From [Phormidium] sp. LEGE 05292 (GTDB lineage Bacteria; Cyanobacteriota; Cyanobacteriia; Cyanobacteriales; Aerosakkonemataceae), in assembly GCF_015207735.1 (NCBI RefSeq), contig NZ_JADEWG010000019.1:1-64000 (forward strand): a stretch of 64,000 nt of DNA. The letters run 5' to 3'. The position numbers and the translations under genes were made by a program. Shown here in pieces: positions 2,311 through 14,022 of the stretch (within the stretch, counting starts at the first letter, position 1; each line of letters begins with the position of its first letter). The notes beneath the pieces are model-generated. The model had not been told where the DNA came from, did no database searches, and saw only the letters and a program-made list of their open reading frames with translations.

Positions 2311-3216
2311 ATGTCGGAGGCACAGAAGCCGCTGACAGTACCAAAGGAGTTGTTGCAACCTCCCGGCGATTTTAATCCTACGCTGCTGATGTTTTGTGTC
2401 GCAGTCGGAATGGTCATACTTTCCACTTGCGGGTATTGGTGCTGGGAATGGCCTGATTGGTGCTGTTTTTCGATTAACGTGATTGCTTTACACATGGTCG
2501 GGACTGTGATTCATGATGCTTCTCACAATGCTGCCCATCGCGATCGCGTCATCAATGCTATGTTAGGGCATGGTAGCGCCCTAATGTTAGGTTTTGCTTT
2601 TCCAGTTTTTACGCGGGTACATATTCAACATCACGCCCATGTCAATGACCCAGATAATGACCCTGACCATTTTGTTTCTACTGGTGGGCCATTATGGTTA
2701 ATTGCGGCGAGGTTTTTCTATCACGAAGTTTACTTTTTTAAACGGCGTTTATGGCGCAAATATGAGTTGTGGGAATGGTTTTTTAGCAGGTTGTTTGTCG
2801 CCACAATTGTCTATTTTGCTTGCCAACATGGAATTTTAGGCTATGTTTTGAATTTCTGGTTTTGCCCAGCTTTAGTAGTAGGTTTGGCGTTAGGGTTGTT
2901 TTTTGATTATCTACCCCATCGTCCTTTTAAGGAGCGCGATCGCTGGAAAAATGCTAGAGTCTATCCTAGCCCCATTCTTAACATCCTAATCTTAGGTCAA
3001 AACTATCATCTGATTCATCATTTGTGGCCTTCAATTCCTTGGTATCATTACCAAACGGCTTACCGTGCCACTCAGCCTCTTTTAGATGAAAAGGGCTGTT
3101 ATCAAACTTTGGGATTGTTCCAAGGCAAAGATTTTTGGAGTTTTGTCTACGACATCTTTTTAGGAATTCGTTTTCACGGGAAAAAGAATTCTCATCGGCA
3201 GTTGGAAGAGGTTTAG
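2311..3216 (+). CDS. crtR: Beta-carotene hydroxylase / fatty-acid-desaturase-family membrane enzyme
   Basis: Membrane di-iron hydroxylase of the fatty-acid desaturase superfamily. The best match is cyanobacterial CrtR, which adds 3-hydroxyl groups to beta-ionone rings of carotenoids to make zeaxanthin. All three histidine boxes are visible: HDASHNAAHR, HIQHHAH and NYHLIHHLWP, with hydrophobic segments between them. An upstream in-frame start exists at 2260, but ATG 2311 is chosen because AGGAGT lies 10-11 bases ahead and MSEAQKPLTVPKE is where the family begins; this gives 301 residues. ATG 2302 is too close to the ribosome-binding site. Substrate assignment rests on family resemblance; another desaturase-type activity cannot be excluded by eye. 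Confidence 0.85.
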   Translation: MSEAQKPLTVPKELLQPPGDFNPTLLMFCVAVGMVILSTCGYWCWEWPDWCCFSINVIALHMVGTVIHDASHNAAHRDRVINAMLGHGSALMLGFAFPVFTRVHIQHHAHVNDPDNDPDHFVSTGGPLWLIAARFFYHEVYFFKRRLWRKYELWEWFFSRLFVATIVYFACQHGILGYVLNFWFCPALVVGLALGLFFDYLPHRPFKERDRWKNARVYPSPILNILILGQNYHLIHHLWPSIPWYHYQTAYRATQPLLDEKGCYQTLGLFQGKDFWSFVYDIFLGIRFHGKKNSHRQLEEV

Positions 3217-3368
3217 CAAAATTTACTGAATATATCGATAATTGAGGTAAATTTAATAATTCCCTAGAAGCAAGATTTATTTCTTGCTTATTTTTTTGGC
3301 AAATTTACAATTTCTCAATTCTATTGTAGAATCTGCCACAAGGAACTGCTACTACGGGAAGCAAACAA

Positions 3369-6137
3369 ATGCTCAGTGCCAACGAACTGTTTAATGAAAC
3401 TTACTATCTAGATAATAATTTAGACCTTTCTGTAGCTTTGAGTAATAACATTATTCCTAACGGCTTTGCTCACTTTAACGGAATTGGAAAGTCAGAAAAT
3501 CGCAGTCCCAGCGGGCTCTTTGATAGTGACTTCTATCTACAAACTTATTCTGATGTAGCCTTAGCTGTTCAGAATAAGACAACTACTGCATTTGACCACT
3601 TTATTTTATCCGGTCAATTTGAAGGACGCGACCCTAATTCTGCATTTCATACCGCTCTTTATTTACAACAAAATCCAGATGTAGCGGCGGCGGCGCAAAG
3701 AAAGGAAATAACAGCCTTTGAACATTTTGTTAAATATGGTATCAATGAAGGACGTTCTCCCGCTGCTATTTTCAACCAACCTAACCCAGAAAAGTGGACT
3801 TTTTCCTTAGATGATTACACAATTGAACACCAAGGAATCAATAACCTAGATATCAATGTTGAATATACCTACAAAGATGGAATTACCTATTCAGAATACC
3901 CGGATTTTGTGCCGATCGCGCAGAGTGTGAATCAGTTTTTAGTTAATTACCCCAACGAAACCGACTTTTGGGAAATTCTCAACAAAAACCTCACGCAAAA
4001 ACTTTTGGATGAAAATCCAGTAATGCAGTCTGTGACTGTTGACATTGATGTTTTACCCAGTATTTCATTACCTTACCAACGTTCTAGTACAGTTACCCGT
4101 GACAGACAAGGAAAATTAGAGGAAAAATGGGATTTCAAAATTCCGCAATATACTATTCAGCACCAAGGATTAAATACTTTAAACCTTGATGTTAATTATA
4201 CCTTTAAACCAGGAATAAGCAATAGCCAATATCCTGACTTTGTACCAATTTATAATCGCATTAATAATTTCCTAATTAACTATCCCAACGAAACTGATTT
4301 TTGGGAAATAGTCAATAAAAACTTAACTCAGCAAATCCTCTCTGAACATCCCGAATTTGCCGACTTTAAAGTTAATTTAGAAGTGCTGCCAACTAACAGT
4401 TTACCATATACCAGAAGCAGCACTGTGACCCGAACTCAACCACAGTTATTAAATGTGCCGGAAACGTTTTTAGTAGGAAATACTAGAGGTAACAACGTAG
4501 TCAGATTTGATGCCAAGACAGGTAGCTATTTAGGTGAATTTATTAGTGCTGGTAGCGGGGGATTGTTCGCTCCTGATAATATTATTTTAGGGCCTGATGG
4601 TAATAATGATGGCATCAGTGACCTTTACATTACTAGCGGTGACAAACCTGCAACTTCTACAGGACAAGGCGCTTCGGGAATTTTGCGTTTTGATGGGAGA
4701 ACGGGGGCATTTATCGATCGCTTTGTCACCGATAATCCCAACACGCCTAACATTGATGAAACGGGTGGTTTGTTGCGTCCTTATGGTTCAGCCTTTGGCC
4801 CCGATGGTAAACTTTATGTTAGCAGTTTCTTAACTGACCAAATTTTACGCTATGACGGCACAACTGGGCAATTTATTGATGTTTTTGCTAAAGGAAATCA
4901 ACAATCTGGGGGATTAAATGGCCCGAATGGAATAATTTTTGGCCCTGATGGTTATCTCTACGTTACTAGCGAAGGAAGTGTAGCGAAAAATGGTACAGCA
5001 GATTTCAGTGCTGGCTTACCTAGTCAGGTATTACGTTATGATATTAAAACAGGTGAATCGAAAGTAATTGCTTCACCGCAAGCTGCACCTAATGGGAATG
5101 GTTTTGTCAGTCTTTTAGGGTTAGCTTTTGGCCCTAATGATGGTCTACTTTACGTGAGTGATTTCGCTAATGATATCCGCAAATATAATGTGCAAACTGG
5201 CGATTTGTTGGGAGTAATTTCAACAAATTATACAGGAACAAATACAACTAATAACTTTACTGGTGGGTTAACTTTTGCCGGAGATGGCAATCTTTATACT
5301 GTAGGTTTTGACTATCGGGAAGGTGCGAATAATATTGGGGCAATTTTAGGATTTAACCCAGTAACAGGGGCAAAAATACCTGCACCAAATAATTCAAACA
5401 GCAATACTTTTGTCCCGCCAGATCCTACGTTGAATCGTCCAGTTGGGATTCTTTCTTATATCCCTAAAACAACGGGAGATTTAAAAGAAGAATGGTCGTT
5501 TAAGTTCCAAAATTACCCAATTCAACATCAAGGTTTGAATAATTTGAATATTGATGTTGATTACGTCTACAAACGGGGAATTAAAAATAATGAATACCCA
5601 GATTTTGTACCAATTTATCAGGGAATAGATAAGTATTTGGTGAATTACCCGAATGAAGGTGATTACTGGGAAATTTTGAATAAGAATGTGACGCAGAAAG
5701 TTTTGACGGAAAATCAGACAATTGATGCTATAACTATTAATTGGAATGTGCTGCCATCACCATCTTTACCTTACAATCGTTCTAGTATTGTGACGCGAAA
5801 TCGCCAAGGGTTACTAGAAGAGAAATGGAACTTTAAAATTCCTAATTATGCGATCGCACATCAAGGTTTAAATACTTTGAATTTAGATGTGAATTATACC
5901 TTTAAACAAGGGATAACTAATGCAGAGTATCCTGATTTTGTACCGATTTATAAGCGGGTAGACGAAGTGTTGCGAAATTACCCAGACGAAAATCAATTTT
6001 GGGAAATTCTGAACCGGAATTTGACAAGTTTAGTGTTAAGAGAAAATCCGGTATTGGCAGATGCTACTATTGGGGTAAGTGTTTTACCAACGGAAAAGTT
6101 ACCTTATAATCGGGGTAGTTTGGTGAAGAGATCGTAA
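3369..6137 (+). CDS. Large repeat protein: NPDVAAA-type repeats, four tunnelling-fold-like repeats and a beta-propeller
   Basis: A 922-residue protein of unknown function. Residues 1-140 hold three copies of a ~47-residue repeat of the form LYLQQNPDVAAAAQ...AFEHFVKYGINEGRSP, common in secreted or surface cyanobacterial proteins. Four ~100-residue repeats follow, two before (about 143-243, 253-355) and two after (about 705-805, 815-920) a central region of ~340 residues. That centre is rich in FGPDGxLYV and RYDxxTG motifs, as in NHL/SMP-30-like propellers. Each ~100-residue repeat contains HQGLNxLNxDVxYxxKxGI, YPDFVPIY, a FWEILNKNLTQ helix and VLPxxxLPYxRSS. Repeats 1 and 3 resemble each other, as do 2 and 4. 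The order helix pair, VxVxVLP and terminal VTR resembles dihydroneopterin aldolase/urate oxidase tunnelling folds; this is inference. No classical signal peptide is seen. Confidence 0.8.
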   Translation: MLSANELFNETYYLDNNLDLSVALSNNIIPNGFAHFNGIGKSENRSPSGLFDSDFYLQTYSDVALAVQNKTTTAFDHFILSGQFEGRDPNSAFHTALYLQQNPDVAAAAQRKEITAFEHFVKYGINEGRSPAAIFNQPNPEKWTFSLDDYTIEHQGINNLDINVEYTYKDGITYSEYPDFVPIAQSVNQFLVNYPNETDFWEILNKNLTQKLLDENPVMQSVTVDIDVLPSISLPYQRSSTVTRDRQGKLEEKWDFKIPQYTIQHQGLNTLNLDVNYTFKPGISNSQYPDFVPIYNRINNFLINYPNETDFWEIVNKNLTQQILSEHPEFADFKVNLEVLPTNSLPYTRSSTVTRTQPQLLNVPETFLVGNTRGNNVVRFDAKTGSYLGEFISAGSGGLFAPDNIILGPDGNNDGISDLYITSGDKPATSTGQGASGILRFDGRTGAFIDRFVTDNPNTPNIDETGGLLRPYGSAFGPDGKLYVSSFLTDQILRYDGTTGQFIDVFAKGNQQSGGLNGPNGIIFGPDGYLYVTSEGSVAKNGTADFSAGLPSQVLRYDIKTGESKVIASPQAAPNGNGFVSLLGLAFGPNDGLLYVSDFANDIRKYNVQTGDLLGVISTNYTGTNTTNNFTGGLTFAGDGNLYTVGFDYREGANNIGAILGFNPVTGAKIPAPNNSNSNTFVPPDPTLNRPVGILSYIPKTTGDLKEEWSFKFQNYPIQHQGLNNLNIDVDYVYKRGIKNNEYPDFVPIYQGIDKYLVNYPNEGDYWEILNKNVTQKVLTENQTIDAITINWNVLPSPSLPYNRSSIVTRNRQGLLEEKWNFKIPNYAIAHQGLNTLNLDVNYTFKQGITNAEYPDFVPIYKRVDEVLRNYPDENQFWEILNRNLTSLVLRENPVLADATIGVSVLPTEKLPYNRGSLVKRS

Positions 6138-10010: not shown

Positions 10011-11414
10011 TTAATTTTGACTTAAATAACCCTCTCCGTGAATTTGGGGGAAAATCCGATAGGAATTTTCATCTATCATTATCTGACTAGGTGAAGTTTC
10101 TTGTTCCATATTCACTAAATTATATTTGATATCTCCTGTATACAGTGTTAAAATAATCTGAATAACCTCCAGAAAGTTAATTACCCATTGACAATCCTGC
10201 TCTGAGTAATTTCCATAATAATCAACCAATTTTGACATACATAATTCTAAAAAAGTCCGCGAATGAGGAGAAATTAATAATACTTTGAGAAGCAAAATTC
10301 CTAAAGTTAAGGCATTACCTTGGGAAGCAATTAAAACAAACAGCTCGGAGGGTTGATTATTCTTGTCAATAGTCAAATATTCAATCATCCGATTAGCAGT
10401 CCTTAAAATCAAAATATTTTGCAACGCTTGCCGATCTTCATGTTGATAAAGAGCATCTAACTTTTGCGTTAGCTGCATTTTTATAGATTTTACTATCTCG
10501 GCACTTTCTAAAGAAAATATCAGATAATTCAACAAACTTTGTTTAAATTGACGGTAACTTATTCCTTGAGTTTGATTCAAAAAGATAGCTGCTAAATTTA
10601 CATGGCTAAAAGCGCCATTTTTTGCCAGGACTTTCTTAATTAACCGTAAGGCTTCATCACCCAAAGCTGTAGGATTTTTAACCTTGCTCTTACTAGATAA
10701 AGTACGATTAGAATGAACCGTATACATCGCCAGATCAAACTTGTATTTATCTTGCAACTGTTGTGACAATCTTCTCGCAGCTTGGCGTTGTTCTAAAGAA
10801 TTTTCCGAATTAAGATACTGAGGAGTTAGTAAATAAGAAGTATAACGAGATTTCCAGTTTCCTGTTTGCTGACGATCGTATCTTGAAGCAAATAGTTTTA
10901 CTTCTTGATAATCTTGGCTTTTCATAAAATTAATTATCCAACTTCTCAGACTCCGCAGAAATGTGGATGAACCACTATAGTTGAGATGAGGAACAGAAAG
11001 CTTTTCAATTAAAATTTGAGCATATTGATATTTCCTGCTATAAATCCAGGTGTTGAGCAAAATATAAATACAACGTTTCAGAGTATTTCTAAACTCTTGC
11101 TCATTTTGAGATAAAACTATGATCTTCAAAGCTTTTTCAATTTCAAGATTACAGTCAAAACTAGGATTAATAAATAACTTTTCAAATTTTGTTAACACTA
11201 TCTCTGGTGCAGCAGATTTGGCAACATTTAGGAAAAATAGCCAAATTCTCTCTTGTGCAGCAGCAATATGTTTTCCCTGTTTATTGAACTGACTGGGTAA
11301 TTCATCTATCTCGATATTACTTACGGTATTGTCGAAAGAGGGAATTCTAATTACTCTTAACTGGTTAATTTTAGGTTGGGATACAAAACTCTGTGATAGC
11401 ATTGGTAGATCCAT
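10011..11414 (-). CDS. Conserved protein of unknown function, copy A of a duplicated pair
   Basis: A 467-residue protein with no recognised domain. It is alpha-helical in appearance, lacks a signal peptide and membrane segments, and is rich in Leu/Gln/Asn. It is a close paralog of the protein at 12652-14022: long blocks such as LKRCIYILLNTWIYSRKYQY, SQDYQEVKLFASRYDRQQTG and GNALTLGILLLKVLLISP are the same or nearly so. Differences concentrate at the N-terminus and in short patches. The upstream DNA of both copies is also related, and copy A is followed by a broken queE start. This shows that it arose by a segmental duplication. Confidence 0.85.
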   Translation of the reverse strand: MDLPMLSQSFVSQPKINQLRVIRIPSFDNTVSNIEIDELPSQFNKQGKHIAAAQERIWLFFLNVAKSAAPEIVLTKFEKLFINPSFDCNLEIEKALKIIVLSQNEQEFRNTLKRCIYILLNTWIYSRKYQYAQILIEKLSVPHLNYSGSSTFLRSLRSWIINFMKSQDYQEVKLFASRYDRQQTGNWKSRYTSYLLTPQYLNSENSLEQRQAARRLSQQLQDKYKFDLAMYTVHSNRTLSSKSKVKNPTALGDEALRLIKKVLAKNGAFSHVNLAAIFLNQTQGISYRQFKQSLLNYLIFSLESAEIVKSIKMQLTQKLDALYQHEDRQALQNILILRTANRMIEYLTIDKNNQPSELFVLIASQGNALTLGILLLKVLLISPHSRTFLELCMSKLVDYYGNYSEQDCQWVINFLEVIQIILTLYTGDIKYNLVNMEQETSPSQIMIDENSYRIFPQIHGEGYLSQN

Positions 11415-12651: not shown

Positions 12652-14022
12652 CTAAATTTGACTTAAAATACTTTCTCCATAAATTTGAGGAAAAATGCGA
12701 TAGCAATTTTCATCTATCATTGTATGGCTAGGTGAAGTTTCTCGCTCCATATTAACTAAATTATATTTCACATTTTCTGTATACAGCGTTAAAATAATCT
12801 GACTAACCTCCAGAAAGTTAATTACCCATTGACAATCCTGCTCTGAGTAATTACCATAATAATCAATCAATTTTGACATACATAATTCTAAAAAAGTCCG
12901 TGAAGGAGGAGAGATTAATAATACTTTGAGAAGCAAAATTCCTAAAGTTAAGGCATTACCTTGGGAAGCAATTAAAACAAACAGCTCAGAGGGTTGATTA
13001 TTCTTGTCAATAGTTAAATATTCAATCATCCGATTACAAGTTCTCAAAATCAAACCGTTTCGCAACACTTGTTGATCTTCATGTTGATAAAGAGCATCTA
13101 ACTTCTGCGTTAGCTGCATTTTTATAAATTCTACTAAACCTGAATTGTCTAAAGAAAATATTAGATAATTCAGTAAACTTTGTTTAAACTGACTGTAATT
13201 TAGTCCTTGAGTTTGATTCAAAAAAATACTAGCTAAATGTACATGATTAAAAAAGCCAGGGGTTGCCAGAACTTTCTTAATTAACCTTAAAGCTTCGTCA
13301 CCCAAAGCTGTAGGATTTTTAACTTTGTCATTCCAAGATGGAGTAGTATGAGAATGAGCCGTATACATTGCCAGATCGAACTTGTATTTATCTTGCAACT
13401 GTTGTGACAATCTTTTCGCAGCTTGGCGTTGTTCTAAAGAATTTTCCGAATTAAGATACTGAGGAGTTAGTAAATAAGAAGTATAACGAGATTTCCAGTT
13501 TCCTGTTTGCTGACGATCGTATCTTGAAGCAAATAGTTTTACTTCTTGATAATCTTGGCTTTTCATAAAATTCATCATCCGGCTTCTCAGACTCCGCAGA
13601 AATGTAGATGCACCACAATAACTGAGATGAGCAACGGAAAGTTTTTCAATTAAAATTTGAGCATATTGGTATTTTCTGCTATAAATCCAGGTGTTGAGCA
13701 AAATATAAATACAGCGTTTGAGAGTATTTCTAAACTCTGGCTCATTTTGAGATAAAACTATGATCTTCAGAGCTCTTTCAATGTCAGAATTAGACAAAAA
13801 ACTAGGATTAATAAATAAGTTTTCAAATTCTGTTAATACCAGCTCTGGCACAGTAGATTTGGTAAGATTGAGGAAAAATTGCCAAATTTCCTCTTGTGCA
13901 GCAGCAATATGTTTTCCCTGTTTATTTGACTGACTGGGAAATTCATCTAACTCGATATGACTTACGGCATTATCGAAAGAGTGGGTAGTTTTAGTTTGAG
14001 ATACAAAAGTTTGAGGTGGCAT
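12652..14022 (-). CDS. Conserved protein of unknown function, copy B of a duplicated pair
   Basis: A 456-residue paralog of the protein at 10011-11414, with almost identical central and C-terminal blocks (for example LTPQYLNSENSLEQRQAA and NRMIEYLTIDKNNQPSELF). It is shorter at the N-terminus by about 11 residues (PPQTFVSQTKTTHSFDNAV). No domain, signal peptide or membrane segment is recognised. It is divergent from intact queE 650 bp away, the arrangement that copy A shares with the queE remnant. This copy therefore probably keeps the ancestral context. Confidence 0.85.
   Translation of the reverse strand: MPPQTFVSQTKTTHSFDNAVSHIELDEFPSQSNKQGKHIAAAQEEIWQFFLNLTKSTVPELVLTEFENLFINPSFLSNSDIERALKIIVLSQNEPEFRNTLKRCIYILLNTWIYSRKYQYAQILIEKLSVAHLSYCGASTFLRSLRSRMMNFMKSQDYQEVKLFASRYDRQQTGNWKSRYTSYLLTPQYLNSENSLEQRQAAKRLSQQLQDKYKFDLAMYTAHSHTTPSWNDKVKNPTALGDEALRLIKKVLATPGFFNHVHLASIFLNQTQGLNYSQFKQSLLNYLIFSLDNSGLVEFIKMQLTQKLDALYQHEDQQVLRNGLILRTCNRMIEYLTIDKNNQPSELFVLIASQGNALTLGILLLKVLLISPPSRTFLELCMSKLIDYYGNYSEQDCQWVINFLEVSQIILTLYTENVKYNLVNMERETSPSHTMIDENCYRIFPQIYGESILSQI

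Follow-up and report, generated by a model that had tools for sequence, protein, structure and literature searches.

The gene studied here lies in a window of 64,000 nucleotides (the whole stretch of DNA that was analysed) from a cyanobacterial genome of 7.5 Mb in 351 contigs. Its product is built of four copies of a module of about 106 amino acids, each of which is supported by modelling as a tunnelling fold (T-fold), and carries a predicted six-bladed beta-propeller between the second and the third copy. The family to which the module belongs is described in neither Pfam nor NCBIfam and, judging from the sequences of its relatives, the protein is probably extracellular. To our knowledge, known T-fold proteins are cytoplasmic or organellar and have one or two modules per chain, and our literature search found no account of a secreted or a four-module T-fold. 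The reading that we prefer, and to which we give an even chance, is that of an exported single-chain T-fold ring, which would bind small planar ligands at the interfaces between modules and for which the propeller would provide a second binding face. The features of the gene are collected in Table 1.

Table 1. Features of the four-repeat gene and of the region preceding it, as positions in the window.
Feature	Position	Strand	Basis or remark
Terminator-like stem and T run, between crtR and the four-repeat gene	3268..3289	+	consensus match only
Promoter-like site, downstream of the terminator-like stem and before the four-repeat gene	3304-3332	+	consensus match only
Whole gene (ORF)	3369..6137	+	922 aa, cysteine-free (ORF translation)
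NPDVAAA-type N-terminal repeats, aa 1-135, without signal peptide	3369..3773	+	sequence
Repeat R1, T-fold, aa 139-244	3783..4100	+	identity, profile match, full model
Conserved Glu of R1, E202 codon, place of the FolB pterin-anchoring Glu	3972..3974	+	conservation and weak profile alignment
Repeat R2 and linker, T-fold, aa 245-355	4101..4433	+	identity; modelled singly, pLDDT 92
Conserved Glu of R2, E313 codon	4305..4307	+	conservation and weak profile alignment
Six-bladed YWTD/NHL-type beta-propeller, aa 362-700	4452..5468	+	structural match; takes the place of the linker between R2 and R3
Repeat R3, T-fold, aa 701-810	5469..5798	+	identity, profile match, full model
Conserved Glu of R3, E768 codon	5670..5672	+	conservation and weak profile alignment
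Repeat R4 and linker, T-fold, aa 811-922	5799..6134	+	identity, profile match, full model
Conserved Glu of R4, E879 codon	6003..6005	+	conservation and weak profile alignment

Four repeats and a predicted propeller insert

An earlier note on this DNA had described four repeats within one protein, and this is confirmed both by their pairwise identities of 55-64% (R1/R2 60, R1/R3 59, R1/R4 55, R2/R3 57, R2/R4 64 and R3/R4 56%) and by a search of the 7.5 Mb genome with the repeat profile. In this search all four repeats were matched with E-values of 1e-58 to 5e-60, which places them far beyond chance, and no significant match was obtained beyond R1-R4. The note had also paired repeat 1 with 3 and repeat 2 with 4. 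The short motifs that it quoted are present in the protein, and the linkers between repeats 1-2 and 3-4 are indeed alike (DRQGKLEEKW and NRQGLLEEKW), but over the full length the pairing is weak, R2/R4 being the closest pair and R1/R3 not rising above R1/R2.

The fold was assessed by modelling R2 alone with AlphaFold2, using a 62-sequence family alignment as input. The resulting model (pLDDT 92, pTM 0.84) has its elements in the order E E H H E E (bbaabb) of the T-fold module, in which two helices lie on one side of an antiparallel sheet. Structural comparison (Foldseek, VIA-align 2) returned T-fold proteins as the best matches throughout: the top one was the H. pylori dihydroneopterin aldolase 8evk (Z 13.2, rmsd 2.1 Å over 105 residues), with further matches to Bacillus urate oxidase 5yja (Z 12.5), PTPS (Z 10.4) and GTP cyclohydrolase I (Z 10.1). 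In the full-length model, whose pTM is 0.54, the element order is identical across R1-R4. The likeness to the T-fold, which had been put forward from the sequence, was thereby recovered by structure prediction of a single repeat. When the repeat profile was compared with the sequences of solved structures, no credible match emerged; a hit to the SEC2 coiled coil (E 0.008) was rejected as a helix match.

The propeller that had been postulated between repeats 2 and 3 was also found, as a prediction. Specifically, the modelled insert (aa 362-700) matches six-bladed propellers of the YWTD/NHL type with Z 24-28.6 over about 250 residues, the value of 28.6 being that obtained with the LRP4 propeller. 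In addition, it resembles the ScyD/ScyE proteins, and the NCBIfam model ScyE_fam (NF033206) matches it with E 4e-12 and 46.3 bits. This score is below the family cut-off of 80 bits, which places the insert outside that family, and the propeller described here differs from those proteins in being embedded in a T-fold chain. In the proteins that possess the propeller, the insert occupies the place of the middle linker and the outer linkers remain 8 residues long. Taken as predictions, the models show both the T-fold modules and the propeller.

An undescribed and apparently exported family

Searches for the repeat in other genomes retrieved relatives in 17/291 and 19/388 sampled genomes of the same class, that is, in about 5-6% of the sampled cyanobacteria, and in 16 of 80 genomes of close relatives; outside the cyanobacteria the module is rare (Paeniroseomonas, Pyrinomonadaceae). 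No Pfam or NCBIfam family model scored above its cut-off on the module, either in the window protein or in any other member. FolB was the recurrent sub-threshold match in both collections, with best E-values among 62 members of 0.01 (Pfam FolB) and 0.029 (NCBIfam FolB_dom), both far below cut-off, and an assignment as dihydroneopterin aldolase by family model was therefore rejected.

The members display several architectures: small proteins whose N-termini resemble signal peptides, proteins in which one or two modules are followed by RTX repeats, proteins with PEP-CTERM-like tails, and chains of four modules with or without the propeller. Intact members have one, two or four modules and never three, the apparent three-copy cases being truncated loci, or a gene broken by stop codons (G123). 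Adjacent copies are joined by linkers of 6-11 residues, with one exception of 20. Single-copy members of about 150 amino acids, devoid of adhesin parts, also occur.

Many of the small members with signal-peptide-like N-termini have a Cys before the first strand and another after the last. In the secreted single-copy members L063, L019, L023, L078 and L112, which have one Cys at each of these places, the pair probably forms a disulphide that ties the two ends of the module. As a separate observation, the four-module gene is split or contains in-frame stops in some Microcoleus and Tychonema genomes (L046, L115 of G123, and L044), and because of these interruptions it may be dispensable there.

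The NPDVAAA-type repeats that had been noticed at the N-terminus of the window protein are present, and no Pfam model scores above cut-off over them. Repeats of this type also head other proteins of the same genome (RTX-type proteins, a serralysin-like peptidase and others; loci L002-L010), most of which start without a signal peptide; in the Microcoleus orthologues they appear degenerate when read by eye. The window protein itself lacks both a signal peptide and an RTX tail. Reading by eye, we found signal-peptide-like N-termini in the single-copy relatives and RTX or PEP-CTERM-like tails in others. Since its relatives carry these candidate export signals, and its N-terminal repeats are common to RTX-type and peptidase proteins, the suggestion that the protein is secreted appears probable as a prediction. 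Export, family membership and the copy numbers of one, two or four are supported by comparison.

The upstream neighbour of the gene is the beta-carotene hydroxylase gene crtR (NF045688), which ends at 3216 and leaves a gap of 152 bases before the four-repeat ORF; downstream, yjbQ lies on the opposite strand. Because the terminator-like and promoter-like sites of Table 1 separate it from crtR, the four-repeat gene may form a transcription unit of its own. A second species of the same genus has the same protein and has also kept the neighbours crtR and pyruvate kinase. This conservation is confined to the genus: no neighbour recurs beside family members across genera, and no metabolic link emerges from the gene neighbours of the family. 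Elsewhere in the window, an alpha/beta hydrolase gene is flanked by two minus-strand genes (10011-11414 and 12652-14022), whose products, 467 and 456 aa long, are related to each other and have no Pfam or NCBIfam matches.

Conserved residues and known T-fold proteins

In the family alignment, the residues of the W-E-x-x-N motif are the most conserved of the module (94-98%, with Glu and Asn at 98% each), and an H-Q-G motif is conserved at 85-89%. T-fold proteins anchor the purine or pterin by a conserved Glu (or Gln) located where the second helix begins. The Glu of the module (E66 of the repeat) aligns with the invariant E73 of cyanobacterial FolB, the equivalent of E74 of S. aureus DHNA, which is the pterin-anchoring residue. 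As this correspondence depends on a weak profile match (probability 3.7%, P 0.011), it is a lead and not a demonstration.

QueF thioimide chemistry requires a Cys, and the four repeats contain neither a Cys nor a metal-binding His cluster. The catalytic Lys of FolB sits after strand 3; in the alignments, as read, it is absent from all four repeats and its position is taken by V or L. The GxxxxExxxxQ motif, which FolB has close to its N-terminus (PMC2229834), is likewise absent from all four. Because the motif, the Lys and the Cys are absent, the identification of the repeats as FolB or QueF enzymes was rejected. The earlier remark that FolB catalytic residues are not evident holds for the N-terminal motif and the Lys, but has to be qualified for the W-E-x-x-N Glu, which aligns, though weakly, with the FolB residue that anchors the pterin.

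In comparison with FolB (PF02152, TIGR00526; PDB 8evk, 1dhn), the repeats share the predicted fold over nearly their whole length and, according to the weak alignment, a Glu where the second helix begins, besides the sub-threshold profile matches. They differ in having an identity of only about 13%, in lacking the motif and the Lys, and in belonging to an apparently exported protein with four modules per chain, whereas the FolB ring is assembled from four chains. The source genome encodes a separate FolB of its own. Urate oxidase (uricase, PF01014; PDB 5yja) has in common with the window protein the tandem T-fold modules of its chain, one of which accounts for the Z of 12.5 reported above. Unlike the window protein, it has two modules per chain, no propeller and its own catalytic residues. 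The PF01014 model matched neither the repeats nor any other part of the 922-aa protein nor its genome, and a search of 59 genomes of the class, the source genome included, yielded no uricase. In urate oxidase, two chains contribute two T-folds apiece to a beta16alpha8 barrel, whose active sites lie at the interfaces (PMC5138847).

A candidate single-chain ring and its alternatives

In the mechanism that we propose, the four T-fold modules of one chain would close into a 16-stranded barrel, a ring otherwise built from four FolB chains or two urate oxidase chains. Wherever two modules meet there would be a pocket, and in it the conserved Glu that opens the second helix would anchor, outside the cytoplasm, a small planar ligand resembling a pterin, a purine or a similar heterocycle. 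The propeller, placed in the middle linker, would lie where the chain break of the urate oxidase dimer falls, and could offer a further binding surface, to which matrix or envelope polymers, for instance, might attach. Such a one-chain barrel would fit the copy numbers of one, two or four, the shortness of the linkers, the alternation seen in relatives (see below) and the position of the propeller; the pTM of 0.54 of the full-length model counts against the ring. The weakness of the profile match to FolB, the missing signal peptide and RTX tail of the window protein, and gene neighbours that differ between genera and suggest no metabolic role speak against the reading as a whole. In addition, ligand binding by the repeats may have been lost, since the catalytic set of any known T-fold enzyme was not recognised. 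The wider proposal of a secreted T-fold family in which a four-subunit ring was fused into one chain, with the propeller at a former subunit boundary, to give four-pocket extracellular heterocycle-binding barrels, is advanced tentatively, with a probability somewhat short of even.

Alternatively, the T-fold could serve as a scaffold only. The protein would then belong to the surface or the matrix, bind polysaccharide or other cells, as do many of the repeat proteins that cyanobacteria secrete, and have no small-molecule pocket. The N-terminal repeats common to RTX-type extracellular proteins, the patchy distribution of the family, the lack of recognisable catalytic residues of known T-fold enzymes and the fact that YWTD/NHL-type propellers are frequent binders of proteins or polymers all point in this direction. 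Nevertheless, we regard it as rather unlikely: W-E-x-x-N apparently sits at the T-fold ligand-site position instead of being scattered across the surface, and the single-copy members of about 150 aa are free of adhesin parts.

The arrangement of the modules bears on a further possibility, namely that the T-folds are independent units strung along the chain and associate with those of other chains, the four copies only raising avidity. Single- and two-copy relatives, if they form rings at all, must oligomerise between chains, and the full-length model has no confident arrangement (pTM 0.54). This alternative appears unlikely in view of the copy numbers of 1, 2 and 4, and not 3, of the short linkers, which leave little freedom between modules, and of the ABAB alternation in other four-copy chains. 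The alternation, which the earlier note had proposed for the window protein, is weak there but clear in three relatives that lack the propeller and have four copies in tandem, where repeats 1-3 and 2-4 are 55-65% identical and the other pairs 42-51%.

The accompanying claim that a whole AB pair had been duplicated was not borne out in the window protein, where R1/R3 (59%) stands against R1/R2 (60%). In trees of its repeats with those of the Microcoleus and Tychonema orthologues, a single clade of all R4s was rejected (p-AU 0.010); R1+R3 was not recovered, yet was not rejected either (p-AU 0.38); and R2+R4 were grouped within the window's genus only (support 96/94), not across both orthologue groups. 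Because the R4 clade is rejected and the R2+R4 pairing is confined to this genus, an exchange between R2 and R4 within this lineage, extending to their linkers, could account for the pattern as well as an old pair duplication.

Finally, an extracellular enzyme whose substrate is a pterin, purine or similar ring, and whose catalytic set is unlike that of known T-fold enzymes, is improbable: the majority of characterised T-fold proteins are enzymes, and besides the Glu the H-Q-G and the Asn of the module are near-invariant, but the repeats have no Cys, no metal-binding His cluster and neither the motif nor the Lys of FolB, and metabolic gene neighbours are absent. The diversity of reactions among T-fold proteins has been called astonishing (PMC5485725).

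Returning to the single-chain ring, an exported family whose chains contain one, two or four modules would offer natural intermediates for asking how symmetric rings become single chains. Should the conserved Glu have retained the binding of a heterocycle, cyanobacteria would own a dedicated extracellular binder of pterins, purines or similar compounds. A minor observation concerns a two-module protein with an RTX-like tail (L021:1024-2322), whose T-folds are 90% identical to each other and which, from its sequence, is apparently the product of a recent duplication or gene conversion.
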